Part shown: in pieces, positions 16,421 through 64,000 of the stretch
Layout of the letters: each line of letters starts with the position of its first letter
Position numbering within the stretch: the first letter of the stretch is position 1
Source: Quercus robur
Taxonomy: Eukaryota > Streptophyta > Magnoliopsida > Fagales > Fagaceae
DNA length: 64,000 bases
Assembly (NCBI RefSeq): GCF_932294415.1
Contig: NC_065537.1
Coordinates: 48,838,302 to 48,902,301 of the forward strand
Direction: 5' to 3'
Position numbers and translations under genes: made by a program
Notes under the pieces: model-generated
Told to the model about the DNA's origin: nothing
Database searches by the model: none
Seen by the model: only the letters and a program-made list of their open reading frames with translations

Positions 16421-16489
<69 letters not shown>

Positions 16490-19795: not shown

Positions 19796-19853
<58 letters not shown>

Positions 19854-20240: not shown

Positions 20241-20304
<64 letters not shown>

Positions 20305-20683
20305 AAGTAGATATGGGGTTCTCCCTTATCAAAACAACTTGCTCTGTGTTGAGTTACTTCTTGAGCTAAATAAATTACAAAGAACTTGAATTGTGGTCAC
20401 TCCATTGACATGCATGCTCAATTGTTTGTGCAGGGAAAAGCACAAGGATTTGTGGCTGGTGTGGAATCATTATCAAGTTTGTTATCACCACTTGTAATGA
20501 GTCCATTGACTTGTGAGTGGACTAACTCATCTTTTATTTAGTTGAGTGTTAGAATCAATTCATATGTATTGCTAACAAGTTAAATTGTTGTTTCAGCATG
20601 GTTCTTATCTAGTAGTGCTCCTTTCAACTGCAAAGGTTTCAGTATTATATGCGCATCTATATGCATGGTAAGCACATACCCCC

Positions 20684-20740
<57 letters not shown>

Positions 20741-21839: not shown

Positions 21840-23325
21840 CAATGACAGAAAGTAACAGAGTGTTGGCCGGGAAGTTCTTCACGAAATGGCATGTGAACCT
21901 GGAGTCGGTGGCGTGAGTTCTAAAGATCAATCTGGAAACAAACCAAAGCTTCGAGGTTAGTGACTTAGGAGATAATAAGGCTCTCTTTCTTTTCCAAAAT
22001 GAGGATGATGCAGATAAAGTCTGACTTCAAGGTCTTTGGTCCTTTGATAAATACCTCCTTGCTCTGCACAAGCTGAAAACAAGAGAGGCAGTTAGCAAGA
22101 TCAAGTTTGACAGGATGGCACTATGGATCCAAATCCACGGCATCCCAACCACATTCCAAACCAAGGAGGTGGGGTACAACATAGGGTCCACCATTGGGGC
22201 GGTGGAAAGTGTAGACACAAATGAAACAGGCTTCTGCCTTGGAAGTTTCATGCGCATAAGGGTAATGATAGACATTTCAAATCCGCTGTGTAGAGGCCGG
22301 AAGGTTCGATTGGGAGAATCAAGTCAGTTTTGGGTTGATTTCAAGTATGAGCGAATGCCAATATTTTTCTACCTTTGTGGTATGGTGACCCACAATGAAA
22401 ATGATTGCTTGGTGGGGCTTCGACGTACTGAACGGATGAATGCAGAGGACAAGCCATATGGGCCATGGCTGAGAGCAACGCAAGAAAGACTTCAAAAACC
22501 TCAACTGGTCTTGGCACCATCTCGAGACAGCGATAAGGAGGTACAAAAGAACCCAGACCTCCATATTCAGGCTGTCACGGGATCAGACCGGCATTCGCAA
22601 AGTCCTATGAAGGGAACCGATCCCCAAACGATGGCGGTAAAGGACAATGAAAAAGGTAAAGCTAACGTGGGGGTTGTGGTCGCAACTACCGAGGTGAAAA
22701 TCTCGCAAATCCCTCATGAGCAGCGAGGTAGTTAGTTCGAGGAGCAACTAAAGGAGATTGACGCAGCGATTTTTGGGGATATGCCTGACACAACAAATCA
22801 CCATAAAGCAGTGCAAAGCACGGGTATGACCGAGGTGATTCAAACAAATGTTCAGGCAACCCATACGCAGATGAAGGTGGAAGATGATGCTAGGCATGAT
22901 GGGCCCCAGGAAATGTCAAAAAGCAATATGATGTCAACACCTGGGTCACAGCCACATAATGGGCCAGCCAATAAAGCCCAGGTAAACTTTACAACTCTCC
23001 CTCCTTTTATTATGGGCCCAACCTCACTGGCTAGCCCTACAAAGCCTAAACTGAAAAAGTCTAGCCAAATAAACTTAAGGAAAGGCCGAGTAGGACCAGC
23101 CATGCAAAGAAAAGAAAATGTTTTACGTAGAGGGATAGTGAGGGTGAAAAGTGATGACTTGGGGACGGGTACCATGATGGAGGTAGAACAAAATGTAAAG
23201 AGTGGTAAGCGTAGAACTCGCTCTCCCTTGAAAGATATTTCAGGTTTGGTGGAGAATGTGAAGAGGAAAAAGGTAGAAGGGGATGTCATGGGAACCCCCT
23301 CACAGTTAAAGCACTACACAAAGTA
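21840..23325 (+). pseudogene. LINE ORF1 (nucleic-acid-binding protein), broken
   Basis: The N-terminal part reads as a DUF4283-type domain (SDLGDNKALFLFQNEDDADK, then KYLLALHKLKTREAVSKIKF). It contains a TGA in the place of a usual Trp codon at about 22,020. The open stretch 22,115-22,735 follows; its zinc knuckle YLCGMVTHNENDC lacks the first Cys of the CX2CX4HX4C pattern. A TAG ends it and the same kind of basic, low-complexity tail continues at 22,781-23,326. The role in an active element would be RNA binding. Confidence is high for family, low for exact start. Confidence 0.7.
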
Positions 23326-24570
23326 GTGAAGGAGGAAGATCCCACTTTAGTCTTCTTAATGGAGACTAAGTATGATGTTACTGAGATGAAATGGGTACAA
23401 AGGAAGTTGGACAGAAAACAGGGGCTTGTGGTGCCTTGTATTCATCAAGGGGGTGGGCTTGCTCTCCTATGGAGGTGTTCTACAACTGTGGAGGTGCAAA
23501 CTTACTCTCCCAACCATATAGATGTTATCATTTCGGAGAATCAGGGTGCAAGGAAATGGAGGTTTACCGGTTTTTATGAGCACCCCAAAACTAGTAGGTG
23601 CAATGAATCTTGGACTTTGCTTTCAAGACTCAGTAGTCGCAGTGACTTACCTTGGGTGTGTATGGGGGATTATAATGAACTCATGTTCGCAAGTGAAAAG
23701 GAGGGTGGTAATACTAGACCTGAGGGTCAGATGAAACAATTCGAAGATGCAATAAATAGATGCAACCTCAGGGACTTGGGGTACAAGGGCTCGGCTTTCA
23801 CTTGGCGGCGGAGGTTAGGCAACCACGGGTGGATACAAGAAAGACTAGACCATGCACTGGTCTTCACCAATTGGGTTAGGATGTTCCCACGTTCCAAATT
23901 ACTTCATATTGCTTCCTCTACATCTGACCATAGTATTCTACTCCTAAAGGCAGCCAACCCCCTTCGACAGAAATCCAGGAGATCAAAACTATTTCGGTTC
24001 AAAGCCATGTGGTTCAAAGATGAGGCGTGTAGTGAGGTGGTTCAAGAAGTGAGGGCAAGAGGTGAAAACAGGGGCTCTCAATGGCCAATTGCTAGCTGCC
24101 TGGAAGAATGCCAATCCGCTCTAATGTCGTGGAACAAAAATATTTTTGGCCACGTAGGTAGAAGAGTCACTGCTCTGCAACAGAAGCTCCAAATTCTGGA
24201 GAATTTGAACATGGGAGGTGCGGCTTTGAATGACATTCATGAGGTTAGATTAGAGTTAAACAAAGCTCTTGCCATTGAGGAAGATATGTGGCTTCAGAGG
24301 TCAAGGAATAGTTGGTTGAAAGCAGGGGACAAGAATACGACTTTTTTCCACACCAAAGCATCCAACCGCATGCAGCGTAACACTATAGCTAGGGTGCTGG
24401 ACTCCAATAATGTGTGGATAGAAGATGAGGAGCAGATTGGTCATGAATTTGTACAGTATTTTGCTGGCCTCTTTACCTCCTCCAACCCTCGGATTGAGGG
24501 GGAGCTTATTGATGCAATTCAGCCAAAGGTATTGGATAGGATGAATGCCTCACTGATCAGGGAATTCTAG
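23283..24570 (+). pseudogene. LINE ORF2: APE-type endonuclease domain
   Basis: An open stretch reading GNPLTVKALHKVV, FLMETK, WVCMGDYNE, KGSAFTWRRR, WIQERLDHAL and STSDHSILLL, the standard order of plant LINE endonuclease motifs, including GDYNE and SDH. The usual WNCRG motif just after the start seems to have been removed by a small deletion: ATGTCATGG at 23,283 is joined directly to GAACCCC. That would remove an active-site Asn. The stretch ends in TAG at 24,568-24,570, in the same frame as the RT that follows. Confidence 0.8.
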
Positions 24571-24573
24571 ACA

Positions 24574-26501
24574 ATGGAAGTTGAGAAAGCCTTAAAGCAG
24601 ATACACCCCACGACGGCCCCGGACCTGGATGGTATGCCCCCTTTATTTTATCAACACTTCTGGCCTACTGTTAGAGAGACTGTTATATGTAATACCTTAA
24701 ACTTTCTTAACCATGGCATGGCCCCGCCCAAGTTCCATAAGACACATATTGTGCTTATCCCAAAAACGAAAGTTCCGGTAAGGGTCACGGATTACCGACC
24801 AATAAGCTTGTGCAACGTGGCTTATAAATTTGCTTCAAAAGTGATGGCAAATAGAATGAAGGTAGTGCTGCAGGAAGTTGTATGTGAAAACCAAAGTGCG
24901 TTTGTGACAGAGAGGTTAATCACTGATAATATTTTAGTGGCACATGAAGTGATGAATCATATTGGCAAACGAAGAAAAGCCAAAAGTGGGGAAATGGCGT
25001 TGAAATTAGACATGAGTAAAGCCTACGACCGGGTAGAATGGGAGTGCTTAAAGCAAATAATGTTAAAACTAGGCTTTCATGGGCATTGGGTGCAAATAGT
25101 CATGAGGTGGATGTCGTCAGTCTCTTATGCAGTGAAAATTAATGGCAAGCCTTGCAGAGAAATACGTCCGTCGCGTGGACTTCGACAAGGCGACCCACTC
25201 TCTCCATATCTCTTTATCATCTGTGCAGAAGGTCTATCTGCTCTAATCCACAGTTCAGTTCAACGGCAGAGGCTAAGAGGAGTGGCTGCTTTGGGTGGGG
25301 GACCTAGCATGTCTCACCTCTTCTTCGCAGATGATAGTCTCATTTTTGGGAGGGCCTCGTTGGAGGAATGTGCTGAAATATAGAGGATGCTTCAGGTCTA
25401 CGAACAGTCATCAGGACAAAAGTTAAATTAGTCGAAAACCTCCTTATTTTTCAGTCCTAACACAGCTGATGAGTTAAAGGAGTCAATCAAGGCAATGTTC
25501 GGTGCAATTGAGATTCGGCCTCATGAATCCTACCTCGGGTTGCCATCCTTGGTGGGCCGGTCAAAGAGCAATACTTTTACCAATTTAAAACAAAGGGTCG
25601 CAAACAAAGTGTCGGGTTGGAAGGAAAAACTCTTGACAACTGCTGGTAAGGAAATTCTGATCAAAGCGATTGCACAAGCAGTACCATCTTACTCCATGTC
25701 ATGTTTTCTCTTGCCGAAGAAATTATGTGATGAACTCACTTCCTTGGTTCGGCAGTTATGGTGGGGTCAGGTTAAAGATGAGAAAAAGCTAGCTGGGATA
25801 AGCTGTGCATGCCACAGGAAATGGGCGGCATGGGGTTCAGGGACTTGAGGATGTTCAATTTGGCGCTTTTGGCAAAGCAAGGATGGAGGTTACAAACCAA
25901 CTCTACTTCCTTGTTTGCCCGAGTGTTTAAGGCGAAGTATTTTTCCCACTGTTTCTTCTTGGAGGCAGATTTAGGCCGCCACCCCTCCTATGCTTGGCGA
26001 AGCATTATGGCGGCCCAAGGGGTGGTGAAAAGGGGAACGAGGTGGCAAATAGGCTCGGGGGAGAGTGTACGGGTGTGGTGTGACAAATGGATTCCTAAGC
26101 CGTCTTCCTACAGTGTGGTCACATGTGAAGATGCTTGCCCAAATGTTGCTCTAGTTTGCGACCTCATAAACAGAGCATCCATGGAGTGGAAAGCTGAGCA
26201 GATCCGAGGCTGTTTCACAAAGGAGGATGTAGATGCTATTTTAAGCATCCCTCTAAGTTTGCATCGGCCCAAGTACAAATTGATATGGGCAGAATCACCA
26301 AGTGGAAAATTTACGGCGAAAAGCGCATATAGGCTAGCATATGAGGTGAACAGGGGTGGCGGCAAAGCAGATTGCTCGAACCCCTCGGCGAGGAAGAACG
26401 TATGGAAGGGGCTGTGGAGAATGAACCTTCCTCAAAAAGTCAAGCATTTTGCTTGGAAGGCAACTAAAAACATACTGGCTTCCAAAGAGGTGCTACAGTA
26501 G
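24574..26501 (+). pseudogene. LINE ORF2: reverse transcriptase and zf-RVT part
   Basis: Positions 24,574-25,383 encode the RT core: DYRPISLCNVAYK, LDMSKAYDRVEW, RGLRQGDPLSPYLF and the catalytic FADD (about 25,324-25,335). The conserved APGPDGM is APDLDGM here. TAG stops at 25,381 and about 25,428 lie in the same frame as 25,495-25,848, in the stretch EQSSGQKLN-SKTSLFFS. The frame then shifts to 25,809-26,501, which carries the C-terminal connection region and zf-RVT start (FTAKSAYRLAYE). Several stops fit C-to-T decay of Gln or Trp codons. Confidence 0.85.
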
Positions 26502-26792
26502 AGGCACATTGAAGTGGAAGGTGGCTGTGCTCTATGCGGGAACCTGATGAAAAACGTTCTCCATATTCTCTGGTTTTGTGCTCATGCCAAGGATGTGTGG
26601 AACACGAGTAAGCTCTCTCTTCCTTTTGATATTGAACCCAACTAGTGTTTTTTGGATATTATGGAAAAGCTTCTACAAGATGAGGAAGTGCATCCCGGCC
26701 TGGCTGAACGGTTTATCTCAGTGTGCTAGGGTATCTGGAAAGAGAGAAATGTCATCCGTACCGATGGAAAGGGTAAACCTGGTAGGGTCAAT

Positions 26793-27380
26793 TTGAAAAC
26801 CTCCCTTGGCTTAATGGACGAGTTCCAGATGGCCAATGAGGGTCCATGGAAGCCAGCTGTAGTGAACCCCGAACTAGTTCACTGGGCGCCTCCACCACTG
26901 GGACAGTACAAGGTAAACTCTGATGGGGCTGTGTTTGCGAACCAGAGGAAGGTGGGGTTGGGCGTGATGATCCGTGATAGCAATGGGAATGTGATTGTTG
27001 CTCTAAGCAGCCCCATGGTGGCTCACTTTGGCGCCCTTGAGACGGAAGCCAAAGCAATGGAGGTTGGCATGCGCTTCGCACTTGACTTAGACATCCGAGA
27101 TGTGGTGGTTGAGTGTGATGCGCTGGCTGTCTTCAATGCTGTCCAAGGTTTAGCAACACCAAGCTCTTCGATCCTGTTCATCGTGGATAGCATCCTCCAG
27201 CAATCACGTTGGTTCAGGTCATGTTGTTTCTCCCATACAAAAAGGCAGGGAAATGTCCCTGCCCACATGTTAGCACAATATTCTAAGTCACTAGTTAGTT
27301 ATGTTGCTTGGGTAGAATCCTGCCCGAGCCATATTGAGCGGGCCTGTGCTCAGGATATTGATGTAGCAACTATTTCTTAA
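26793..27380 (+). pseudogene. LINE ORF2: C-terminal RNase H domain
   Basis: RNase H-like order of acidic motifs: YKVNSDGAV, GLGVMIRDSNGNV, ETEAKAMEVGM, VVVECDA and KRQGNVPAHMLAQ. It lies in the same frame as the RT segment at 25,809-26,501, separated by the zf-RVT stretch with stops (about 26,499-26,790). The four catalytic acidic positions (D, E, D, and the usual His/Asp region) look largely kept, but the parent ORF is broken. Confidence 0.8.
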
Positions 27381-27437: not shown

Positions 27438-27895
27438 GACATCAAAAGTTTAAAGCATCTCTCTACCAACTATCAAAATTATTAACCAAAAAAAAAAAAA
27501 TGATGTAAGTAGAAATTTGGGTTATAATGTCATGGAATGGCTATGGTTTTCAAATTTAACATTCAAATATTATGGTTTAATATGCTCAAATCTCAATTAA
27601 GTTAAAATTAGTTTGATTCTGATTCACGTTTAAAATTTTTTACAAATTTAGAAAATCAAAAACCCAAAAAAAAAAAAAAAAAAATTGTTTGAACCCGAAA
27701 TTGAATCGACCCAAACACCAACCCGCCCGTAACCTGTTTGCCCTTTCAGTCTTTCACGGACACTATTCTAATTTCTAAGCGCCCAAAAAATATCAGAAAC
27801 ACAACACAAACAGATGAGATAAACTGATAGCAGATTGGCATATTTGAGACTTTGAGAGAGCTTATAGTTTGCCATGAAACCTTAAAAAAGCAGCC

Positions 27896-30800
27896 ATGGA
27901 ACAAGCTCTCTCTTCCTCAACCATAATCTCTACAACACAAATATTTCCACTCAAACCTCTCAAAACCCATCTCCAAACTCCAACAATAAACCTCAAATTC
28001 TCCATTTCTCCAAAGAAAAACAACCACCTTCATCTTTCTTCTTTTTCTTCTTCTTGTCTATGTTTCTCTAATAAAGCAAGTGCCACTTCAACGACAACAC
28101 CACCAGCATTAACTTCCACTCCCAGTAGTGACAACCACCATTGGATGGTGCTCATGGAGGCTCCTCCACAAGGGGTCAATTCCAAACCACAAGTTATTGA
28201 ATTCTATGTTAAGACATTGGAAAGAGTTTTAGGCAGGTGGGTATATTTCAAAATATTCTTTTTTTGTCATGTTGCAAATGTTTCTTAGCTTTTGGTCTGA
28301 AATCCTGCTTTGGTTGTGATTTTTTGAATAACAGTGAGAAGGATGCTCAGATGTGTATATATGATGCTTCTTGGGATACCCACTTCGGCTTTTGCTGTGA
28401 CATTGATGAAGAAACCTCCCGTGAACTTGCCGGTAAGTTTCTATAGCAGAAAAAGTCTGAGTCATCTGATGTACTTCAATTCTGTACCATACTTTGCTTT
28501 CATGTTTGTGGAGAAACTAAAATTGTGAGAGTTACTTTCGTAGTTTCATTAATATTGATGTGTAATGAATATGTTTTAGGATTACCCGGCGTTTTATCAG
28601 TTAGGCCTGACCCAGATTATAGTTCTGTGAAAAAGGATTATAGTTTTTCAAGTATTCAATCCAGTTATCTGTCAAGCTCACAAATTGGAAGTAATCTGTT
28701 GTTTCCCATGGGGAGTACCAAACACGGGCTTGCTCGAATGGACAAACCAGGGATTGGAGTTGTTACAAAGGCTCAAATGGTTGATTATTATGCTCAAATA
28801 CTGACCAAGGTTTTGGGGAAGTAAGTAAATAACATTTGAGCTTGTTATTATGTTTCTGTTCCATTTTATTGTAACGTCTCTAACAGTGCATCAATGCAAT
28901 ATTCTTCCTTTGATTGCTTTATTTCTCTTCACCCTGAAAGTGGAATAATACTTTTTGTAGTGAGAAAGACGCACAAATGTGTATTTATCATGTTTCTTGG
29001 CAGTCCAACTTTGGATTCTGTTGTGAACTTGATGATGAATGTGCACGGGAACTAGCTGGTTAGTATTTGCATTGGGTTTCTCTTTGCACGGTTGTGATAT
29101 GTATTTTGCAGCTTGAAGACAAATGCTTCCATATGGTGTAGGTGTACCAGGTGTATTATCTGTTCAGCTAGATAAGAATTTTGAGTCAGAGAATAAGGAT
29201 TATGGAGGTTTGTACGTTTTTCAAATAATATCTTTGTGTGTTTTTTTAATGTTTGATCAGATAAAACATGCTCCACATCTTTTCTACCTTGCAACTTCGC
29301 TTCTCTTCAAGCATCGTATTCAGTAATATCTTGATCTCAGAGATATATTGCAAATTATTAACTTTGACTGTTTCTTTCTTTCTTTTCTTCTTTTAATAAT
29401 TTCTATTTGAAAGGCCTGTGTGTCAAAAAAGTATATAGCAGCAGCACCATGTAACTTATGCTAGTATATTTGTGTCGGTGTCATAACAAATACATGTTTT
29501 AGAGATTCTAATACTTAATCAACCAATATGTTTATGTGATTTCACTGTATGAGATGATCTCTCAAGTAATTTAGTTATGTAAATAAAGCAATTAACTTTA
29601 GACGTTTTATTAATTTGAGCTGGATTTTAGTGGAGGGGTAAATTCTATGTCATTGTAGATGGCCAGTCTTTGAAGCAGCTAAAGGAAAGTTCTATAGTCC
29701 AGTAGCAGCCATGTGTCTTTTCCTCGAAAGTGGAAGACTTTGTATTGAGTAGAAAAATAGGCTTTATAGTGGCTGCAGTTCTTTGTGGCAGAGATGAGTC
29801 TTTTCCTTGGTTAGAATCATGCATTGGGCTTGGGAACACTTTGTACTGTATAGCAGTTGTGATTCTAGAGTTTGTGGCAGAGCATGCCTTTGCAACAGAA
29901 AGCACACAATGTCAATTAATGACTTATAAAAGTGGACAGCGTTTGATACTGACTGTGAAAGTTGCTAAGTGAGCTTTAGCACAAGGGAAAGCTCAAGGAA
30001 GTAATTCCTGATCATATTTTATTGTCAAGCTCAATGAGAATGTTGCTGATGGAATTGGACATTCAAAGGGAAATATTATGTCAATTATACTGAGTCATGT
30101 AGTAGTTAGTAGAATTGTACAATATATGAAGTATTAACTATAGCCATGAGAAGTATACCCATGAAACTTTAACCATATGGCTTACAGAAGGTTTAACAAA
30201 ATGAGCAGATTAGGAAGGTATCTGATGCTGGGGTAAGAAAGAGGTAAGTATAGCCAATCTCGTCACAAAATCTGTTGTGCAAAGTTGCTGGAAGTCTTGA
30301 GCGAGGAGAAATGAATCAGATGCATTGAGAAAGAGAGATTCCCAATGTATCTATGTGAGGGGTGAGACTGAAAAAGGTAGGGTCCAACTTATTATATTCT
30401 TAAGTGGAATTCATCCAACTGGTTGGAGTTTAGGTGCAGGTGATAACTTTAAATGGGTAGAAGATTCAAATGCTGCTGAGGAAAGTAAATTGCTTACTCT
30501 CTGTTCTTGGAAAATTATTTTGGAAAGCCATGGGAAAAATAAATTATATTCCATAGACCCCAAAAAGTGATGTTTAACGTTATAGTGACATGTATGGTGG
30601 TGCATTTCTCAAATACTTGCTATTAAATTTGATAACAACTAGTTTATGTCAGAAAATGGCTTCAGGTCTGGTTCTTGTGTATTGATTAAGGCTCATCTTT
30701 AAATTGAAGTTCATGTATAAAAGGTGGTTTTGGAATATATTTTACAACATGCATGAAGTTTTAAGAAAAGGGGGGGGGTAAGGCTGCCTACCTACCATGA

Positions 30801-33800
30801 CCTCTCCTAGACTACGCAACAGTGGGAGCTTTGTGCAGCCTCTCCTAGACTCTGTAAAAGTGGGAGTTTTGTGCACTGGGTACGGCCATGAAGTTTTAAG
30901 AAACTCTGTTGCTGGTTGCTCAAGCAAATGAGGAGGAGGTATGCAATGCTGAAATTGGTGAAGATATTACAATAACATAATAAAATTGTTGTACCTAGTG
31001 CCAAAAACTCCTCTTTTGTGGGATTTGGGAGAGGTGATTGGTAGGCAATCTTAGTGCTTTACACCCAATTTTATTATGGAATGCCTGATTCCTAGACTCA
31101 AATCTGCAACTTGTCACTTTGGGTGGAACGCACTTGCTATTGTACTAAGGCCCAACCTCTCTGTTAAATTACCGATTCTCCCAAAAGCTTAAACTATTAG
31201 GAAATGGTGAATTTAATCACTTAACCATAATTCCAACACTCTCTTTAAATAGCATAAGAACTAACAATAGATTTTTTAATTCTTAATCCAATTGCTCTGA
31301 AACATGCCTTAGCCAAGATGGGTTACTGGCTAGTCCAACTTGGTTAATGATGATCAGATGATGTAAGTGAGACTGTCAAGATGATTTGGTTGTGTGAGAC
31401 AGAAATCTTCAATGGTTAATGCGAGGTATATTTGGTGCTAGTTAAGGTCTGTATGAAGGAGTGACTGATATCAGCCACCCCAACAAAAGCAAAAATATAT
31501 AATTTATTGAAAGCCTGTATTTTGTGCTTTGTGATAATATACTGATCTTTATCGGTGGACAATGCTTGAGGGTAGGTATTTAGGTGATATCACACTCGAA
31601 GCAGTCCCATTTAATATAATATTTTTCATTACATGATTAAGAAATTTTATAGTATAACCCGTCAAACATCATTTTTTTTTGTTTTCATTTATACAAATTT
31701 TGAATATTTTGGAATTTCTAAAAAAAACCTCATACAGTGTGATGGACTCCGGTTCTATCAAGTGCTATATGAACAGTAGGCGAAACAATCTACTTTGAGG
31801 CTGGCCAGCCTCCTAAAATAAGAGTGAGGGGGTGGGGAGACATTTGAGTCAGAATTATTCTGAGATTCCTTTATCGAATACAAAACCTACATAAATAGCC
31901 AACACCTCTCCTAACTCATTGAAAAGACTAATAGGAATGATAACCAATCTATTTTCTACGTTGTCTCCCGAGTCCAAGGAACTATTCTTCATTATTATTT
32001 GATAAAACCACGGCAAAATTTGGTAAAATAAATTTAATCTATCTAATCTATTTCGGTATCAAACATGCAAAACTTGCAGCCAACCTTGTGACATTACTTG
32101 CTGCCTGGCTAAAATCAGTGTTTTCACCTGTTCTGATACATTCACCAGTGAGGTGAACATACCAAGCACATTAGGTTATATTTTTTGTTAAGGAACTAGT
32201 CCTATAGAAACCATTAAATTTTTCAGTTTAGGATTTTAATGACATTTTATCACCTAGTGTAAACAGCTGGTTAGAGGATTGGTCGAGTATTTGATAGAAC
32301 TTGACTGCTTGCAGAATAGACATTTTCTGTTAACTATTAGAGTAAAATTCTGAAACCTTCCTCAATAGAGCGATTGATTGATGCCATGTTTACCAAGTGC
32401 TAGAGTACTTGTTTATTTATGTTTTTATCATGCTTCTGTTAGTTAGCTTAAGCATGTTTTATTATTATGGAGAGAAAATCTTCTAATGTGAAGTGGAATA
32501 TGTCATTACTCTTCAAGTTTTTTTTTTTTTATAAGTCTTACTGTTCAATTTTTTTTTGGATAAGGCTTACTCTTCAATGTTTTCTCAGTGGAAAATATGC
32601 AAATGATGATTTAATAACTGGATTACTATTGTTGTTATATGGGGTTAGAATAAACTACTGAAATTATTAATCTTGATTTGTTTTTAATAAGAGGCCAATT
32701 CCCAATGAATCATTTCAATGTCTTTCAGATTATATCTTTAGTTTACCATTGCAACAATTCTTTCCATTGTAGAGTAAACAAGCTGTATTTTCAGGTAATA
32801 ATCTACAGAGTTCCACAGATCTGCCAGATCCTTCAGAAGCAAGTCAAACAACCCCTATAAAAACAAAGAAACTATTCGTTACAGGTATGTTGCAAGACTG
32901 AGTTTGAATTCTTTGCTTGTAAATTTCATATTTTCGAAGACCACTTTTAAGAAATAATTCAAGATTCTTATTTATGAAATGTGCATGCTTGTTCTACTAT
33001 AATGGTTGTCTAATTATGCTTTTTTGAGTTTTACCTGATTAACATTTGGTTCTATTTAGTCTTTGGAGATTCCCTGGACCTTGCCATGGTGTCCTCTTAT
33101 GAGATCATAATGTATTACTTGTACTTTCCATTCTGAAATCCAAAAGTTTTCTGGTCCAGCAACTTTATTACTCCCTCTTTTTTTATTCACAAATGACAGT
33201 GATTTACAATCTTGATTTAAAAACAGGGCTGTCATTTTACACATCTGAGAAAACCTTACGTGCTGCATTTGAAGGCTTTGGTGAGCTTGTTGAAGGTATG
33301 TTTGCATTTCCATGCTCATAAATGACGTGTTTCATTAGTAAGGTTATACCCGTGCTGATGCACTGCTTCCTCAACAGTTAAAATTATAATGGACAAAATT
33401 TCCAAAAGGTCCAAAGGTTATGCATTTATAGAGTACACTACGGAGGAGGCTGCTAGTGCAGCACTCAAAGAGATGAATGGCAAGGTAAGTTTTCTTCCAT
33501 TACGAATCTTCCTTGTATTTTTCTTGTGTGTTGGGAAATTTAGATCCTAGTCAATAGAATTAATAAGTTTTAAACCCAAGTTGTTAATTAGATTTATGTG
33601 AATAAGCTTATTAAAACAAACAAACATCAATATCATGTCAAAATCATGTAGCGGAAAAAATAAATAAGGCAATATATGATAACCCAGGAAAACCAATGAA
33701 ACAAACTAGTTTCACAGTAAAAAAACCTAGGAGGAAACCTTCCCGAAAAGAAATTCACTATAGTAAAAAGAAGTTTCAGATCTAGTACAAAACCTTTGTC

Positions 33801-34746
33801 CCTAAACTCTACAATCTCCGTAGATGAACCCACAGCAAAAACCTTCTACCGCTTTAGAACCTCTGAACTCTTCAATATATGAACACCAACCTTTTTGTTG
33901 CACGGATTCCAATATGTGACTAACTCCTTTACACAAATCCCAGTACGTGACTCACTCACCAACTTGAGGAAGAAAAATGTTGGCTGCAAAGTTCTTCACT
34001 TCATTAACAATGAAAATTAAGAAGCACTTAGTTACAAAACCCTAAGGTGCAAAGACGTAGTAGCTTTTTTTAGAGAGAATAAGACATCGATCACCTTTTA
34101 CATATGTTCTCCTTATATTTTCTTATGTGACGGCTTCTAAAATAAGCCTTATATATGTCTAGGGTTGTGAGAAAAGAAACCCTACATATACATGTCAGCA
34201 TAGGCCGAAAATCAGATTTGAAATTCTGAATTCCTGTAACCTTGATAGATAGTATCTGTCGAGCCTTATTAAACCTCGATAGATAGCTATTTGTCGAGAA
34301 GCTGTCGAGCTATTTGTCCGTAGGTATCGAGCTTTTTGTCCAGCTTTAATGAACAACTTTCTTCACTTGTTTTTTAGTCCAATTTTCATGGTTTTAATAC
34401 TAGACTTGAACAACATGTTTTTTGAAATATTAAACACATCCTAAATCTACCCAAATACAAGTAAATTGCGTTTTGTCAAAGGATTAGTCAATTACATAAA
34501 ATACTGACATATGCTCATAACAAGTGAATCACATATGTCCTAACATTGTGCTTAATGTTCAAATGCAGTTTTGTTTTCCTTAAGCTTTGGTTCATAATTG
34601 TAGATAAAACAAATATAACTCTTTGAGTAAGAGAAAGGGTAATCTCTCCATTTTGTTCTTGGTTCTTGCAGATTATTAATGGCTGGATGATAGTTGTTGA
34701 TGTTGCCAAGACTAATCCACCAAGATACAGCAGGGGTCGCCCTAGA
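27896..34746 (+). CDS. ORRM1: Organelle RRM protein 1-like RNA-editing factor
   Basis: Predicted 394-residue chloroplast protein. In Arabidopsis, ORRM1 is required for C-to-U editing of many plastid transcripts and combines MORF/RIP-like boxes with an RRM. Nine exons keep phase: 27896-28236, 28335-28432, 28580-28820, 28961-29058, 29142-29207, 32795-32884, 33227-33295, 33378-33484, 34672-34746. Residues 1 to about 75 are Ser/Thr-rich and poor in acids, as in a transit peptide. Box 1 covers about 81-160 (WMVLMEAPPQG to PGVLSVRPDPDY). Box 2 covers about 195-280 (ARMDKPGIGVVTKAQMVDYY to PGVLSVQLDKNF). The RRM covers about 306-386, with RNP2 LFVTGL and RNP1 KGYAFIEY. Exons 2 and 4 are both 98 nt, same phase and homologous. 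Intron 5 (3.6 kb) and intron 8 (with a solo LTR) are large. No disruption is seen. Confidence 0.9.
30779..30890 (+). mobile_element. Au-SINE-like 3' end
   Basis: TAAGGCTGCCTACC, GACCTCTCCTAGACTACGCA, GTGGGAGCTTTGTGCA and GTGCACTGGGTACGGCC match the 3' part of plant Au-type SINEs. The CTCCTAGACT...GTGGGAG...TTTGTGCA block occurs twice in tandem, an internal duplication. The 5' part is absent. Confidence 0.65.
31000..31161 (-). mobile_element. SINE of the same type, minus strand
   Basis: The reverse complement contains a Pol III B-box-like segment (CAGATTTGAGTCTAGGA) followed by GATTGCCTACCAATCACC, CTCTCCCAAATCCCAC and GGCACTAGGTACAAC, resembling the Au-SINE 3' region seen at 30,779. Its 5' side abuts the mini LTR. 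Divergence suggests it is old. Confidence 0.55.
31162..31238 (-). mobile_element. 77-bp mini LTR (TRIM-like) with 5-bp target duplication
   Basis: On the minus strand it runs TGTTGGAATTATGG... to ...GGTAATTTAACA (TG...CA ends). CTCTC flanks it on both sides (31,157-31,161 and 31,239-31,243), as expected for LTR-element integration. A related stretch (AAAAGCTAAAACTATTAG to TTCTAACA) lies at about 45,140-45,205. Its size fits terminal-repeat retrotransposons in miniature. Confidence 0.6.
33529..34545 (-). mobile_element. Solo LTR in ORRM1 intron 8, 5-bp target duplication
   Basis: TG...CA ends, antisense to the gene, same family as 9,411-10,551. TTGTG flanks it exactly on both sides (33,524-33,528 and 34,546-34,550). 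No internal region is present. The perfect duplication suggests a fairly recent or well-preserved insertion. It sits between ORRM1 exons 8 and 9 without touching splice sites. Confidence 0.9.
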
Positions 34747-45474: not shown

Positions 45475-45777
<303 letters not shown>

Positions 45778-47303: not shown

Positions 47304-48630
47304 TTTTTTTTTTTTTTTTTGATAAGTAACTTAAAAGTTTATTGAAAGAACACAGCCCCGTACATAGGAAATGTACTAAAGAGGCAAAAACATCAAGAAA
47401 TCAAAGTACAATGATCAAGCAACCCAGAAAGGGAAATACAAGAAAAAGAAGGTAAAACCAAACACCATTCGAGAAGAGTAGAAAAGAAAAAAGACTTAAA
47501 GTCAAGAATGGACCGTTCGCGATCTTCAAAGCCTCTCAAATTCCGTTCCCGCCAGATACACCACATCAAACAGTGTGGCACAATCCTCCAAATAATTATA
47601 TTACGATGTTGCCTAAAATTGCAAGACCAGCAATCCAACAAATCCGTTACCCTTTGCGGCATCACCCAACAAATACCAAACAAGCAGAAGATCATACTCC
47701 ACATCTCAAATGCAATAGGATAGTGAAGGAGGAGATGATCTACAGATTCCCCACACCCTTTGCACATAAAACACCACTCAAGAAAAACAAAGTGCCTCTT
47801 CCGAAGATTATCTATAGTTAAAATCTTGCCTAAAGCCACAGTCCAAGAGAAAAAAGCAACCCAAGGAGGAACCTTCAATTGCCACGCCATTTTCTAAGGG
47901 AAGGGAATGACAATAGATGGGGAAAGAGAATGATAATACCCACTCACCCTGAAACCTCGACTGCAGGCAAGCTTCCAACAAAGTTTGTCAGCACCAAAAC
48001 CTTGGACCTTTGTGGAATAGATCAAGACCAAAAATGAATCCAAAGAAATTGACTCTTGATCGTTCACTAAGCGATGAAATTGAATGTCCCAAGAAACTCT
48101 CCCATTTGCGTAGCACATAACCTCAAAGACCAAAGCCTCCCTTGTCCTACTAATATTATACAAATCTGGAAATTCCTCCTTAAGAGGACAATCCCTACAC
48201 CACACATCATCCCAAAACTTCACACGAGTACCATCACCCACATCATATCGAAGGCACTTGGAAAAATTCAACCAGCCACTTCTAATGCACTTCCACAAAC
48301 AAACAGCATAAGCCCCCAACACAGATTTTGTACACCAACCACCCCATTCATTCCCATACTTCGCCCCAATGACCCTTCTCCAAAGGGCATCATTCTCCCA
48401 ACCATAACGCCACAACCATTTGGCTAATAAGGCATAATTAAACCTTCTCAAGCACCGAATGCCTAACCCTCCATTCTTCACTGGCCTACAAACCTTAGAC
48501 CAATTTACCAAATGAATTTTATGATCATCCCCAATACCAGTCCAAAGAAAATCTCTTTGTAATTTCTCCATCCTCTTAGCCACCTTAACTGGAATAGGGA
48601 GAAGAGAAAGGAAATACGTAGGTAAGCTAG
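47304..48630 (-). mobile_element. LINE 3' fragment with poly-A tail (minus strand)
   Basis: Minus-strand translation starts LPTYFLSLLPIPVKVAKRME, continues LQRDFLWTG, GGLGIRCLRRFNYALLAKWL, and ends with a zf-RVT domain (WVAFFSWTVALGKILTIDNL, then [14 protein letters not shown]-like). It ends in the 3' tail, visible as TTACTTATC plus a 17-nt A run. It is 5' truncated in the RT C-terminal region. The long open stretches (229 and 165 codons) show it is younger than the LINE at 14.4 kb. Confidence 0.85.
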
Positions 48631-49839: not shown

Positions 49840-51076
<1,237 letters not shown>

Positions 51077-51548
51077 CAGTAAAAAAGTGGGGAAACTTCA
51101 CAGGCAGTATTACAGCCTCTTGCAATGCCTGTTTGGCACTCTCAAGCCCGGCCACGTCACTCCACTTCACGTTTGGTTTCTCCCTGATTATCATAGAATC
51201 AAGGCCAGCCCTAAGCTTTGCTTGCTCTAGATCCTCCGCATCTTTCCCCACTCCTCCCTTCAACTTTGTCTTTGGTTGGCTAGCAACTGTTGCATCACCA
51301 CTAGGGGAAGGCCCACTCCCCCCATTATCGAGAATGGCCCTTATCTCGTCTGCCCTCTTCAAATATTCCATACATTTTTGAGTAATCGCTTCCTTAATCT
51401 TTGGATTCTTCTCATACTTCAAATGAGTCCTAAAGTACTCTAACGCATTCATATAGAGCGGAAATGCTTTGCTATAGTTTCCAACATCATCCTCCTGAAC
51501 TGCCTGCTTCACATACTCTATTGCGTGCTCCTTAAAATTGCTATACAT

Positions 51549-52240
51549 CTTTTACTTACAATAAATGCATAGAAATCAAAGCCACAAAAAATGACACTCA
51601 AACTAGTTTCAAACCACCACTCCTTCCCCCTAGAACCCAAAATCCAATACTGAGTTCGACTCTCCAATGATTTCTTTTTGGTAATGATATTATACACACT
51701 CTTATCACAATTCTAAAACTTGAATTCTCAGATAAGCAACTTATCCACACCCTTAGAACTTGCAACCAAAAACCCAATACTCAGTAACACCTCAGATTTT
51801 CTACTAATATTTCTGATGCTTCAAAATATAACCAAACCTGAAAGTAAAATGAAATAAACCATTCAACTTGAAATCAATCAAAAAGAAAAGAAAATAAAAC
51901 TGCCCAGTACTCAAATTTCATTGCATCATATATTTATGATAAGCCATTTACAATTCAAGATTTTTTATATATATATATTAAAAAAAAAAAAAAAAGTGAA
52001 TTTGCAATCAAACCCTGAAATCTAGTTCAAAAAGTACAGAAATGAAAAACCCAATTCTCAGAATTTGTTTCTATGATGATAGTGATGTTGTTCAAGAAGC
52101 CATAACAGGTAAGCTTCACAGGTCCGAATAGAAGACTCTGAACAGAAAATTTCGGTTACAAACCTGAAATTCAAGCTTTATTTTCTCTCTGGTGCTTTGC
52201 GTTTTGATAATGAAAATGAAACTTTGGAAACAAAGAGAGA
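51549..52240 (-). promoter_or_regulatory. 5' UTR with probable leader intron of SKD1/VPS4
   Basis: On the minus strand, a purine-rich leader (GAGAGAAAATAAAGCTTGAA) ends in TTTCAG|GTTTGT at 52,164/52,163, and an acceptor-like AAAAG directly precedes the ATG at 51,548. A 5' UTR intron of about 0.6 kb is therefore plausible; such introns are common in plant housekeeping genes. The transcription start would lie near 52,230-52,300. Confidence 0.45.
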
Positions 52241-55310: not shown

Positions 55311-55970
55311 GGCCCTGTTTGTTTCAGCATAAACTTTTTGCACAAAATGTTCCACTTTCATGCGTTTGGTGTGCTTAACAGTATTAGTCACCTTGAAAAC
55401 ATTTTGGTTGACCACGGAAAAGCAATCAAAGAGTCAAGATAAGTCATCCGAGGAGGGGGGAAAAAAGTCCCTCAAAGATGGTCTTGTGTACTCCTTCCCA
55501 CCCCTCAATCTCCAATTTTGCCTAACCCCCCTCTCTAAGCCGCCTCACATTTTTTCCCAGATATCTCTGTCATTTTTTCTTTAGGTGTCTCTTAATATTT
55601 TTATTTTGCTATACGTTTCTTGATTATTTTTCTTTCTTAAGTAACCAAGATATATTGAGATCTACAAATTCCTTGGTTATGCCTTATGTATGTATCTCTT
55701 CTTAAAAATAGTTTTTAAGTTGATTTTCCATATGAAGAAAATGCCGGAAAATGTTTCCAAAGTATTACCAATCTCTAGTAGAAAAGAAAAAGACTCTTAA
55801 TAATTTTTTTGATTATACATAATTATATAATTGCCAATACAAATTTAGCTATAACAAAAATTGAAAAAATATTTCCTTTTCATTGGAGACTATCAAAAAA
55901 ATCCGAAAATGTTACAAAATTTATATTAACTGCATTTAGTATTTCTTAGAGTTGCAACCAAATAGCGGAA
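55311..55970. mobile_element. Probable hAT-type MITE next to the satellite array
   Basis: The left end GGCCCTGTTTGTTTCAGC, subterminal GCGTTTGGTGTGCTTAACAG and right end GCAACCAAATAGCGGAAAA resemble common plant hAT MITEs with Gly-Cys-type GTTTGG/CCAAAC ends. No target duplication is clear. The satellite starts about 20 bp further right. Confidence 0.4.
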
Positions 55971-55987
55971 AATAAGCAATTTATTCT

Positions 55988-58900
55988 TGAATTCAGAAAT
56001 ATAGAGTTGGGTTCAAGTTACATTTGATGTAACTCCAGAAAATCTTACGCCAACCAATAACTTATTCCTGAATTCATATTTTGAAAATCCAACCATTCGA
56101 TCACATTTTCTATATGTTCTTAACATGCATGCCAATTTTCATGACAATCGGATGTAATTTACCATTTCATCTTTAAACTCATCTTTTCTGCGTTATTTTA
56201 AATTACAAAAACTTGAATTTAAACAATTGATTGATAACATGGCCATTAAGCTTTGATCATCTTGAAATTTTTTAAGCATGAAAAATATATGAAGATAATG
56301 TAATCTAACGGTAGATTTGTCAAAATTCACATCGAATTAAGCAATTTAGAGTTAGATTCAAGTTACACTTGATGTAACTGTAGAAAATATTTCGCCAATC
56401 AATAACTTATTACTGATTTCATATTTTGAAAATCCAACCGTTAGATCACATTTTTTATATTTTCTTAACATGCATGCCAATTTTCATGTCAATCGGATGT
56501 AATTTACCATTTGATATTTCAACTCATCTTTAATGCGTTATTCTAAATTACAGAAATTTGAATTTAAATAATTGATTGATGACATGACTATTAATCTTTG
56601 ATCATCTTGAAATTTTATAAGCGTGAAAATTATATGAAGATAATGTAATTTAGTAGTAGATTTGACAAAATTCACATCGAATTAAGAAATACAGGGTTGG
56701 GTTCAAGTTACACTTGATGTAACTCTAGAAAATGTTACGCCAACCAATAACTTATTCTCGAATTCATATTTTGAAAATCCAACCATTGGATCACATTTTC
56801 TATATGTTTTTAACATGCATGCCAATTTTCATGTCAATCAGATGTAATTTACCATTTGATCTTTAAACTCATCTTTCATGCGTTATTTTAAATTACAAAA
56901 ACTTGAATTTAAACAATTGATTAATGACATGGCCATTAATCATTGATCATCTTGAAATTTTTTAAGCAGAAAAAATATATGAAGATAATGTAATCTAACG
57001 GTAGATTTGTCAAAATTCACATCGAATTAAGAAATATAGGGTTGGGTTCAAGTTACATTTGATGTAACTCTAGAAAATGTTACGCCAACCAATAATTTAT
57101 TCTTGAATTTATATTTTGAAAATCCAACCGTTGGATCACATTTTATATATTTTCTTAACATGCATGCCAATTTTTACGCCAATCGGATATAATTTACCAT
57201 TTCATCTTTAAACCCATCTTTTATGCGTTATTTTAAAATACAAAAACTTGAATTTAAACAATTGATTGATGACATGGCTATTAATCTTTTATCACCATGA
57301 AATTTTGTAAGTATAAAAAATAAATGAAGATAATGTAATCTAACGGTAGATTTGTCAAAATTCAAAATGAATTAAGAGATATAAGATTGGGTTCAAGTTA
57401 CAATTGATGTAACTCTAAAAAATGTTACACCAACCAATAAATTATTCTTGAGTTCATATTTTGAAAATCTAACATTTGGATCACATTTTCTATATGTTCT
57501 TAACATGTATGAAAATTTAAATGCCAATCAGATCTAATTTACCATTTGATATTTAAACTCATCTTTTATGCATTATTTTAAATTACAAAAATTTGAATTT
57601 AAACAATTGATTGATAACATGACTATTAATCTTTGATCACCTTAAAATTTTGTAAGCAAGAAAAAATATATGAAGATAATGTAATCTAACGATAGATTTG
57701 TCAAAATTCACATCGAATTAAGAAATTTAGGGTTGATTTCAAGTTACACTTGATGTAACTGCAGAAAATGATACGCCAATCAATAACTTATTCTTGATTT
57801 CATATTTTGAAAATCCAACCGTTGGATCACGTTTTTTTTTATTTTCTTAACATGAATGTCAATTTTCATGCCAATCGGATATAATTTACCATTTCATCTT
57901 TAAACTCATCTTTTATGCGTTATTCTAAATTACAAAAATTTCAATTTCAAAAATTGATTGATGACATGACTATTAATATTTGATCATCTTGAAATTTTAT
58001 AAGCGTGAAAATTATATGAAGATAATGTAATCTAGAGGTAAATTTGTCAAAATTCACATCGAATTAAGAAATATAGAGTTGAGTTCAAGTTACACTTGAT
58101 GTAACTCTAGAAAATGTTACGCCAACCAATAACTTATTCTTGAATTCATATTTTGAAAATATAACCACTGGATCACATTTTCTATATGTTTTTACCATGC
58201 ATGCTAATTTTCATGCCAATCGGATGTAATTTACCATTTGATCTTTAAACTCATCATTTATGCTTTATTCTAAATTACAAAAACTTGAATTTAAACAATT
58301 GATTGATGACATGGTTATAAATCTTTGATCATCTTGAAATTTTGTAAGCTAACGGTAGATTTATCAAATTTCACATCGAATTAAGAAATATAGGGTTAGG
58401 TTCAAATTACACTTGATGTAACTCTAGAAAATGTTACGCCAACCAATAACTTATTATTGAATTCTTATTTTGAAAATCCAATAGTTGGATCACATTTTCT
58501 ATATGTTCTTATCATGCCTGCCAATTTTCATCCCAATCGGATATAATTTATCATTTGATCTTAAAACTCATCTTTTATGCGTTATTCTAAATTACAAAAA
58601 CTTGAATTTAAACAATTGATTGATGACATTGTTATTAATCTTTGATCATCTTGAAATTTTATAAGCGTGAAAATTATATAAAGATAATGTAATCTAGTGG
58701 TAGATTTGTCAAAATTCACATCAAATTAAGAAATATAGGGTTGCGTTCTAGTTACACTTGATGTAACTCTAGAAAATGTTACGCCAACCAATAACTTATT
58801 CTTGAATTCATATTTTGAAAATCTAACCATTAGATCACATTTTCTATATGTTTTTAACATGCATACCAATTTTCATGACAATCAGATATAATTTACCATT

Positions 58901-61900
58901 TGATATTTAAACTCATCTTTTATGCGTAATTTTAAATTACAAAAACTTTAATTTAAATAATTGATTGATGACATGGTTATTAATCTTTAATCATCTTGAA
59001 ACTTTATAAGCGTGAAAATTATATGAAGATAATGTAATCTAGTGGTAGATTTGTCAAAATTCACATCGAATTAAGAAATATAGGGTTGGGTTCCAGTTAC
59101 AATTGATGTAACTCTAGAAAATGATACGCCAACCAATAACTTATTCTTGAATTCATATTTTCAAAATCCAATTGTTGGATCACATTTTCTATATATTCTT
59201 AACATGCATGCCAATTTTCAAGCCAATCGGATGTAATTTACCTTTTGATCTTTAAACTCATCTTTTATGCGTTATTTTAAATTACAAAAACTTGAATTTA
59301 AACAATTGATTAACGACATGACCAATAATCTTTGATCATCTTGAAATTTTGTAAGCATGAAAACTATATAAAGATAATGTAATCAAACGATAGATTTGTC
59401 AAAATTCACATCGAATTAAGAAATTTAGGGTTGGGTTCAAGTTACACTTGATGTAACTCTAGAAAATGATACGCCAACCAATAACTTATTCTTGAATCCA
59501 TATTTTGAAAATCCAACCGTTGGATCACATTTTCTATATTTTCTTAACATGCATGCCAATCGAATATAATTTACTATTTCATCTTTAAACTCATCTTTTA
59601 TACGTTATTTTAAAATACAAAAACTTGAATTTAAACAATTGATTGATGACATGGCTATTAATCTTTGATCATCTTGAAATTTTATAAGCGTGAAAATTAT
59701 ATGAAGATAATGTAATCTAGTGGTAGATTTGTCAAAATTCACATCGAATTAAGAAATATGGGATTGGGTTCCAGTTATAATTGATGTAACTCTAGAAAAT
59801 GTTACACTAAACAATAACTTATTCTTGAATTCATATTTTGAAAATCCAACCGTTGGACACATTTTCTATTTGTTCTTAACATGCATGCCAATTTTCATGG
59901 CAATCGGATGTAATTTACATTTTGATCTTCAAACTCATCTTTTATGCGTTATTTTAAATTACAAAAGCTTGAATTTAAACAATTGATTAATGACATGACC
60001 ATTAATTTTTGATCATCTTGAAATTTTGTAAGCATGAAAAATATATGGAAAAATGTAATCTAACGGTAGATTTGTCAATATTCACATCGAATTAAGAAAT
60101 ATAGGGTTGAGTTCAAGTTACACTTGATATAACTCTAAAAAATGTTACACCAACAAATAACTTATTCTTAAGTTCATATTCTGACAATCTAACCGTTGGA
60201 TCACATTTCTATATGTTCTTAACATATATGCCGATTTTCATGCCAATCAGAAATAATTTACCATTTGATCTTTAAATTCATCTTTTATGCGTTATTTTAA
60301 ATTACAAAAACTTGAATTCAAAAAATTAATTGATGACATGACTATTAATCTTTGATAATTTTGAAATTTTTTAAGCGTGAAAATTATATGAAGATAATGT
60401 AATCTAGTGGTAGATTTGTCAAAATTCACATCGAATTAAGAGATATAGGATCGGGTTCAAGTTACACATCATGTAACTCTAGAAACTGTTACGCCAACCA
60501 AAACTTATTCTTAAATTCATATTTTGAAAATCCAACCGTTGGATCACATTTTCTATATGTTCTTACCATGTATGCCAATTTTCATGCCAATTGGATGTAA
60601 TTTACCATTTGATCTTAAACTCATCTTTTATGCGTTATTCCAAATTACAAAAAACTTGAATTTAAACAATTGATTGATCACATGGCTATTAATTTTTGAT
60701 TATTTTGAAATTTCATAAGCATGAAAAATATATGAAGATAACGTAATTTAACGGTAGATTTGCCAAATTTCACATCGAATTAAGAAATATGGGGTTGGGT
60801 TCAAATTAAACTTGATGTAACTCTAGAAAATGTTACATCAACCAATAAATTATTCTTGAATTCATATTTTGAAAATCCAACCATTGGATCAAATTTTCTA
60901 TACGTTCTTACCATACATGCCAATTGGATATAATTTACCATTTGATCTTTAAACTCATCTATTATGCGTTATTTTAAATTTCAAAAACTTCAATTTAAAC
61001 AATTGATTGATGACATGGCTATTAATCTTTGATCGTCTTGAAATTTTATAAGCGTGAAAATTATATAAAGATAATGTAATATAGTGGTAGATTTGTCAAA
61101 ATTCATATCGAATTAAGAAATATAGTGTTGGGTTCAAGTCACACTTGATGTAACTCTAGAAAATGTTACGCTAGCCAATAACTTATTCTTGAATTTATAT
61201 TTTGAAAATGCAACCGTTGGATCACATTTTCTATACGTTTTTAACATGCATGCCAATTTTCATGCCAATCAGATATAATTTACTATATGATCTTTAAACT
61301 CATTTTTTATGCGTTATTTTAAATTATAAAAACTTGAATTTAAACATTTGATTGATGACATGGCTATTAAACTTTGATCACCTTGAAATTTTGTAAGTAT
61401 AAAAAATGAATGAAAATAATGTAATCTAATGGTAGATTTGTAAAAATTCACGGCGAATTAAGAAATATAGGGTTGGGTTCAAGTTACACCTAATGTAACT
61501 CCAAAAAATGTTACACCAACCAATAACTTATTCTTGAATACGTATTTTAAAAATCTAACTGTTGGATCACATTTTCTATATGTTCTTAACATGTATGTCA
61601 ATTTTCATGCCAATGAGAGGTGATTTACCATTTGATCTTTAAACTCATCTTTTATGCGTTATTTTAAATTACAAAAATTTGAATTTAAACAATTGATTGA
61701 TGACGTGACTATTAGTCTTTGATCACCTTGAAATTTTGTAAGCAAGATAAATATATGAAGATAATGTAATCGAACGGTACATTTGTCAAAATTCACATCG
61801 AATTAAGAAATTTAGGGTTGGTTTCAAGTTACACTTGATGTAACTGTAGAAAATGTTACTCCAATCAATAACTTATTCTTGACTTCATGTTTTGAAAATC

Positions 61901-64000
61901 TGACTGTTGGATCACATTTTATATATTTTCTTAACATGCATGCCAATTTTCATGCCAATCAGATGTAATTTACCATTTGATCTTTAAACCCATCTTTTAT
62001 GCGTTATTTTAACTTACAAAAACTTGAATTTGAACAATTGATTGATGACATGGCTATTAATCTTTGATCACTTTGAACTTTTGTAAGTATAAAAAATAGA
62101 TGAAAATAATGTAATCTAACGGTAAATTTGTCAAAATTGACATCGAATTGAGAAATATAAGGATGGATTCAAGTTACCCTTGGTGTAACTCTAAAAAATG
62201 TTACACCAACCAATAACTTTTTCTTGAGTTCATATTTTGAAAATCTAACTGTTGGCTCACATTTTCTATATGTTCTTAACATGTATGCCTGTTTTAATGC
62301 CAATCAGATGTAATTTACCATATTATCTTTAAACTGATCTTTTATGCGTTATTTTAAACTACAAAAACCTGAATTTAAACAATTGATTGATGACATGACT
62401 ATTAATCTTTGATGACCTTGAAATTCTGTAAGCATGAAAAATATATGAAGATAATGTAATCTAAAGGTAGATTTGTCAAAATTCACGTCGAAGTAAGAAA
62501 TTTAGGGTTGGTTTCAAGTTACACTTGATGTAAATGTAGAAAATGTTACTCCAATGAATAACTTATCCTTGATGTCATATTTTGAAATTCCAACCGTTGC
62601 ATCACATTTTTTATATTTTCTTAACATGCATGCCAATTTTCATACCAATCGGATGTAATTTACCATTTGATCTTTAAACTCATCTTTTATGCGTTATTCT
62701 AAATTACAAAAACTTGAATTTAAACAATTGATTGATGCCATGACTATTAATCTTTGATCATCTTGAAATTTTATACGCGTGAAAATTATATAGAGATAAT
62801 GTAATCTAGTGGTAGATTTGTCAAAATTCACATCGAATTAAAAAATATAGGGTTGGGTTCAAGTTACACTTGATGTAACTCTAGAAAATGTTACGCAAAC
62901 CAATAACTTATTCTTAAATTCATATTTTGAAAATCGAACCGTTGAATCACATTTTCTATATGTTCTTACCATGCATGCCAATTTTCATGTCAATCGGATG
63001 TAATTTACCGTTTTATCTTTAAACTCATCTTTTATGCGTTATTCTAAATTACAAAAACTTGAATTTTAACAATTCATTGATGACATGGCTATTAATCTTT
63101 GATCATCTTGAAATTTTGTAAGCATGAAAATTATATGAAAATAATGTAATCTAACGGTAGATTTGTCAAATTTCACATCGAGTTAAGAAATATAGGATTG
63201 GGTTCAAGTTACACTTGATGTAACTCGAGAAAATGTTTCGCCAACCAATAACTTATTCTTGAATTCATATTTTGAAAATCTAACCATTTGATCACATTTT
63301 CTATATGTTCTTAACATGCATGCCAATTTTCATGCCAATCGGATATAGTTTACTATTTCATCTTTAAACTCATCTTTTATGCGTTATTTTAGAATACAAA
63401 AACTTGAATTTAAACAATTGATTGATGACATGGCTATTAATCTTTAATCACCTTGAAATTTTGTATGTATAAAAAATAGATGTAGATAATGTAATCTAAT
63501 GGTACATTTATCAAAATTCACATCAAAGTATTAAATATAGGGTTGGGTTCAAGTTACACTCGATGTAACTCTAAAAAATGTTACACCAAACAATAATTTA
63601 TTCTGGAGTTCATATTTTGAAAATCTAACCATTGGATCACATTTTCTATATGTTCTTAACATACATGCCGATTTTCATGCCAATCAAATGTAATTTATCA
63701 TTTGATCTTTAAACTCAACTTTTACGCGTTATTTTAAACTACAAAAAATTGAATTTAAACAATTGATTGATGACATGACTATTAATCTTTGATCATCTTG
63801 AAATTTCTAAGGTTGAAAATTATATGAAGATAATGTAATCTAGTGGTAGATTTGTCAAAATTTTCATTGAATTAAGAAATATAGGGTTGGGTTCAAGTTA
63901 CACTTGATGTAACTCTAGAAACTGTTACGCCAACCAATAACTTATTCTTAAATTCATATTTTGAAAATCCAACCGTTGGATCACATTTTCTATATGTTCT
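55988..64000 (+). repeat. Tandem array of ~345-bp monomers (MITE-derived satellite)
   Basis: Monomer starts, taken at the G(T/A)TTCAAGTTACA motif, fall near 56011, 56356, 56701, 57046, 57391, 57736, 58082, 58400, 58745, 59090, 59435, 59768, 60111, 60455, 60799, 61132, 61478, 61822, 62167, 62512, 62858, 63202, 63547, 63891. That gives 23 complete units and one cut by the window edge. Most are 343-346 bp; one is 318 (a 28-nt deletion) and two are 333. Each unit has a short palindrome AGTTACA-CTTGA-TGTAACT and a stem-loop GATGTAAC-N10-GTTACGCC near its start. No open frames. A related single copy with both ends lies at 8,796-9,180 in reverse. Confidence 0.95.

Follow-up and report, generated by a model that had tools for sequence, protein, structure and literature searches.

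An oak satellite array whose unit may derive from a MITE-like element lacking one outer end

The unit of a head-to-tail satellite array in Quercus robur probably descends from a non-coding, MITE-like element of ~385 bp with terminal inverted repeats (TIRs), minus the outer ~44 bp of the element's tail end. We put the probability of this origin at about 0.65. The array lies at the right end of the window, by which we mean the whole stretch of 64,000 nucleotides that was analyzed, and a single dispersed relative of its unit lies near 8.8 kb. Two features support an origin from a two-ended element: the inverted tail of the dispersed copy and the remnants of a second arm in the array consensus. 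Because the window contains one dispersed copy, we infer past transposition, and the order of element first and satellite second, from structure; this order is the more economical reading.

The features discussed here are as follows (window coordinates, strand, description and basis).

8,567–9,217 (no strand assigned): flank stretch of 651 bp with 38 bp opposite it (21,108–21,145) in the paralogous flank; block comparison
8,796–9,180 (−): dispersed MITE-like copy, 385 bp, with two inverted ends; BLAST and alignments
8,796–8,839 (−): 44-bp tail end of the copy, which repeats its head in inverted orientation and was not detected at the tail side of any of the 23 array units; inverted-versus-direct test and unit scan
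9,127–9,180 (−): head end of the copy, retained in the array; alignments and four-arm comparison
55,978–55,995 (+): array's left edge, where 18 bp resemble the unit interior (17/18) and the sequence then switches to the unit junction; local alignment
55,988–64,000 (+): head-to-tail array with a modal unit of 345 bp; TRF, unit extraction and MAFFT
56,693–57,037 (+): example unit, from AGGGTTGGG to AAATAT, in the phase set by the start of the dispersed copy; alignment to that copy
56,693–56,747 (+): single terminus of the example unit, its head end, with an imperfect stem-loop; probe scan of 23 units

Structure of the tandem array

The array (TRF start 55,988 or 55,990) is cut by the end of the window at 64,000 and is at least 8 kb long. 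Counted from 55,990, it comprises 23 full units and a partial unit of 131 bp. Twenty of the 23 are 343–346 bp long, and deletions are present in units 7 (317 bp), 11 and 15 (333 bp each). In a MAFFT alignment of the full units, mean pairwise identity is 88.6% (range 84.1–93.9), so that in its long head-to-tail series of similar units the array resembles satellite DNA. C>T and G>A changes account for 216 of the 526 substitutions relative to the array consensus, an excess that would be in keeping with methylation and silencing of this DNA. At its left edge, the array appears to retain a truncated earlier unit: local alignment there scored 31, compared to 23 when 55,701–55,995 was searched with the unit in reverse orientation.

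Similarity between units does not decay with distance along the array (Mantel r 0.02, p 0.395), and subgroups of units are dispersed along it, for example units 2, 6 and 20, or units 5, 17 and 19. Extra similarity occurs at lags of 14 (p 0.006) and 18 (p 0.0045) units, with p-values uncorrected over the 20 lags. The scattered subgroups, the lack of decay with distance and the weak similarity at these two lags together suggest several old rounds of segment duplication. A simple star-like burst was rejected, since the residuals (0.0118) were three times those of a simulated star (0.0039). A higher-order repeat was also considered and is not firm, given the uncorrected p-values.

The 12-bp deletions in unit 11 (at 59,414) and unit 15 (at 60,778) fall at almost the same site, in alignment columns 143–154 and 150–161. 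By eye, both sit in a CATGCCAAT-like direct repeat, and either recurrent slippage or a shared ancestor could perhaps have produced them.

A dispersed copy that covers one unit and 44 bp more

The dispersed copy at 8,796–9,180 lies ~47 kb from the array and is inverted relative to it. The initial annotation had aligned the 345-bp monomer with this element over its full length, and our alignments agree. The copy matched all 23 full units and the partial unit by BLAST, with E values from 2e-16 (the partial unit) to 4e-77 and 73.2–78.7% identity; in the set used for tree building, its identity to the 23 units was 74.6–79.7%. Across positions 1–55,960, further copies did not rise above the control (best nhmmer E 0.89, compared to 0.41 for reversed sequence).

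Read on the minus strand, the dispersed copy starts with AGGATTGGG, spans one unit, reaches AAATAT and then continues for 44 bp. These 44 bp are absent from the array, where the next unit starts after AAATAT. Alignment of all monomers with the 8.8-kb copy, a check proposed in the initial annotation, thus returned one whole unit plus 44 bp. The fit of the ends was evaluated in units 2–22 of 23 (n = 21). In 16 of these, the alignment ended within 2 bp of the end of the unit; it ended early in unit 7, which carries a deletion, and 6–33 bp beyond the unit end in units 5, 12, 15 and 16. The alignment started within 1 bp of a common point in seven units, 3 or 11 bp inside it in three, and 9 bp farther out, through AG-rich sequence, in 11.

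In a tree of the units and the dispersed copy, the branch of the copy measured 0.35, compared to 0.04–0.10 for units. The tree is unrooted and the attachment of the copy among the units is poorly supported (0.36), so the tree alone does not order events. In its size, the copy resembles known MITEs, which are non-coding and shorter than ~500 bp: it measures 385 bp, and its stop-to-stop frames are all shorter than 100 codons.

Inverted ends of the element and a second arm in the array

The two ends of the dispersed copy are inverted repeats (70 bp, 77% identity), a feature it has in common with MITEs. Its inverted-arm score was 68, and the maximum over 2,000 dinucleotide shuffles was 39. Short palindromes within the ends could make a direct repeat pass for an inverted one, and for this reason we compared the two orientations using four scoring schemes, two heads and 1,000 base shuffles. 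The 44-bp tail aligned to the head with z-scores of 5.8–11.1 when inverted and 2.5–4.8 when direct. A mere fragment of a head-to-tail array would carry a direct copy, and the inverted tail therefore speaks against such a fragment.

A second arm is also discernible within the array. When the consensus was phased at AGGGTTGGG, its first 150 bp aligned to its reverse-complemented last 150 bp with a score of 51, whereas the best of 2,000 dinucleotide shuffles reached 35. Measured from the junction, the arms start at 62 bp on the head side and at 4 bp on the tail side, indicating that the second arm was kept in the array and that its outer end is missing. Taken unit by unit, the inner arm is weaker, exceeding the maximum of the unit's own 300 shuffles in 11 of the 23.

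We then aligned all four arms, those of the element and those of the array. At the outer ends, a comparison that covers 46–54 sites, the head and tail of the element were 73.9% identical (46 sites), the heads of element and array 77.8%, and the element tail and array head 69.6%. For the inner arms, head–tail identity was 56.7–61.7%, compared to 78.3% for both head–head and tail–tail. Ends that are kept alike over otherwise diverged arms would be the pattern expected of a mobile element, although a looser gapped pairwise alignment blurs the contrast between outer and inner parts (77–88% in all six inner comparisons).

The element had been described as having two inverted ends with the same stem-loop. 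The inverted ends are present; the stem is not the same at both. By eye and in a separate check, the perfect stem TGGTGTAAC-N10-GTTACACCA was found only at the left end of the element (8,808–8,835), and pairing is 7/9 at the right end and in the array consensus. The whole strands of the element (z −2.4) and of the unit (z −3.8) are predicted to fold more stably than shuffled sequences, which is in line with inverted arms and not diagnostic of them.

One terminus per unit

Each of the 23 units was scanned with probes for both ends of the element in both orientations, and a score counted as a match if it exceeded the highest value from 100 shuffled stretches by at least one. Of the 23 units, 18 matched the head probe, 19 the reversed tail probe, and 21 at least one of the two; in the remaining units, 2 and 6, it was the reversed head probe alone that matched, within the palindromic core. 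All matches lay at the head position, and none of the 23 units had a second terminus at its tail side. The initial annotation, which had noted one stem-loop or terminus per array unit, was thus correct on this point (23/23 at the head position, 0/23 at the tail side).

At the unit junction, AAATAT/AGGGTTGGG, the whole head end out to GGGTTGGG is joined to a tail cut at AAATAT. To the extent that such diverged copies can be compared, overlap does not evidently exceed 1 bp. A junction of this form suggests that the tail end suffered a deletion or was joined as a broken end. In three of 21 units, local alignment continues 20–33 bp into the next unit, which we read as palindrome matching and not as a hybrid end.

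The joined ends of the element were predicted to fold with −17.4 kcal/mol, and two array junctions with −15.1 and −14.4 kcal/mol. We rejected junction folding energy as a sign of palindrome instability, because these values are too close and the joined ends fold as local hairpins.

The paralogous flank and target duplication

Two tandem paralogous blocks, at 2,750–8,566 and 15,441–21,107 (both +), are 75–84% alike in their main matches. The initial annotation held that the element is missing from the paralogous flank and that it had therefore behaved as a transposable element. The element is indeed absent there, but the flank is not a clean empty site: 651 bp are missing and not 385, including non-element sequence of ~229 bp to the left of the element and 37 bp to its right. 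A deletion in the paralogue explains this difference equally well.

No target duplication above chance was found at the 8.8-kb copy. The best candidate, 5 bp (TTACC), lies inside the homologous part, and the same rule, which allows one mismatch from 8 bp up, returned duplications of 5 bp or more in 370 of 500 random site pairs. We rejected TTACC, which would put the end of the element inside sequence shared with the array. The right flank of the element is a TC microsatellite, which may have overwritten a target duplication. With neither a clean empty site nor a target duplication above chance, this flank does not show that the element transposed. As a target duplication, expected of a MITE, does not stand out at this single, eroded copy, we describe the element as MITE-like without assigning it to the MITEs.

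Origin of the unit

In the origin that we favor, the founder would have been either a circle formed on excision or a dimer in head-to-tail order, with its tail end trimmed and fused to an intact head. Such joining of broken ends could have produced the present AAATAT/AGGGTTGGG junction. The 345-bp unit would then have been multiplied, either by rolling-circle copying and re-insertion or by repeated unequal exchange, after which the copies diverged. Intact ends that abut would form an inverted repeat at each junction, and the loss of one end may have given tandem copies the stability they needed to spread. Because the fold energies are too close and no single long hairpin is predicted, palindrome instability is a step that we infer. 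It is rather doubtful that terminus loss was the enabling step from MITE to satellite, such that only one-ended circles or dimers spread and intact abutting ends make an unstable palindrome. If it was, the genome would hold several independent arrays that stem from a variety of MITE families and in each case have lost one outer end.

The satellite could instead have come first, the 8.8-kb copy being an old escaped unit to which an inverted duplicate of its head was later added, for instance by fold-back synthesis. We consider this unlikely. It would agree with the sole dispersed copy in the window, at which no target duplication exceeds chance and a clean empty site is lacking, and with the weak direct alignment of the tail of the copy to the next unit (z 2.5–4.8). 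However, the tail fits the head better inverted than direct, and the array consensus itself has a second inverted arm whose outer end is missing, both of which are at odds with an escaped unit. The copy also differs from the units by 20–25%, compared to ~11% among units, making late escape from this array unlikely unless the copy decayed much faster.

The initial annotation proposed that the termini of neighboring tandem MITEs recombined, leaving one terminus common to each pair. Each unit does have one terminus, and the short palindromes in the termini could pair in either orientation. Exchange within termini should give a hybrid end, though, and the terminus in the array is a complete head out to GGGTTGGG, while similarity to the tail stops at AAATAT, before the tail terminus. 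The claim that neighboring copies share a terminus is thus at odds with the complete head end, which does not look hybrid, and exchange between adjacent terminal repeats is unsupported by a junction that keeps one whole terminus without the other; we regard this route as quite improbable. Least credible of all is that no transposon was involved and that array and copy are remnants of some other dyad-symmetric repeat, such as a fragment of a larger element: it would fit the absence of a transposase domain (Pfam) from the 34 stop-to-stop frames of at least 100 codons in the window, a length limit that short or spliced coding parts would escape, but not the compact 385-bp form, the better-matched outer ends and the fact that all frames of the element fall below 100 codons.

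Comparison with known systems

MITE tandem arrays and MITE-derived satellites are already published, and the oak array adds an example. We compared it with the accounts given in excerpts of the papers cited here. In corals, CMITEs are short non-coding TIR elements that, like the oak unit, occur in tandem arrays, for which the authors suggest replication slippage (PMC2872659); as described there, CMITEs are full-sized with TTAA duplications, whereas the oak unit lacks one outer end and no duplication stands out. In Xenopus, Xstir and the Xmix MITE are likewise a case of MITE-related tandem repeats, for which stem-loop deletion between neighboring elements has been proposed (PMC12628747, PMC9659126). 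The source of those repeats is said to be the internal part of the MITE, whereas the oak unit comprises almost the entire element and has one terminus. The miDNA4 element of Xenopus tropicalis (Scalvenzi and Pollet 2014, as cited in PMC12628747 and PMC9659126) also links a MITE to satellite formation, and is reported to drive it, but that satellite expands within its MITE, unlike the oak array.

Tetris/TIR-220 of Drosophila virilis, a foldback-derived satellite, is similar in that an inverted-repeat element yields kb-size tandem arrays (PMC4079207); in the excerpt its repeats are just a ~220-bp part of a long TIR, whereas the oak unit is nearly the whole element. Among plants, VaccSat7 is a Harbinger-related satellite of Vaccinium in which part of a DNA transposon end is tandemly multiplied (PMC7290377). 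It differs from the oak array in having 3–5 units of the terminal part inside the transposon, and 3-bp duplications. The rye D1100 repeat is also listed in a review among MITE-derived satellites (PMC9659126).

The excerpts of open-licence literature that our search covered contain no account of a unit that equals a whole MITE except for one outer end, and such a unit may still be published. None of six 20-mers of the unit matched the literature. An exact-pattern scan of public viral contigs gave 0 matches and one of public genome contigs a single 23-bp match, in a Methylophilaceae MAG; both collections are non-plant, so these counts say little. We judged the MAG match to be chance, as its similarity to the unit or element is confined to 23–24 bp. 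If the proposed origin is confirmed genome-wide, a single plant genome would display a two-ended founder, a one-ended unit and the exact junction between units, and the junction sequence could separate the routes of slippage, stem-loop deletion and circle amplification.

Other features of the window

Scans of the window with Rfam (at the gathering threshold) and for tRNAs gave no matches. An inverted dispersed repeat, 83% identical between 9,411–10,551 (+) and 33,529–34,545 (−), begins ~230 bp past the 8.8-kb element, and no copy of the element is present at 33–34 kb. In the paralogous blocks, one of four scanned exon pieces gave a weak MFS_1 match, below the cut-off (E 0.014).

Pfam domains of an L1-like LINE are distributed over several separate open frames at 22,025–27,377 (+): DUF4283/zinc knuckle, endonuclease, reverse transcriptase, and weak zf-RVT and RVT_3 matches. 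A second zf-RVT fragment lies at 47,396–47,893 (−). Two adjacent frames, at 27,878–28,285 and 28,447–28,821 (+), each match positions 2–34 of the 93 in the Pfam MORF domain of organellar RNA editing factors, and they are perhaps a duplicated exon. Together with the LINE, these MORF domains would fit plant DNA. Fragments of AAA ATPase and MIT domains (Pfam) occur at 45,475–45,777 (−) and 51,075–51,551 (−); presumably, these could be exons of one VPS4/katanin-like gene.
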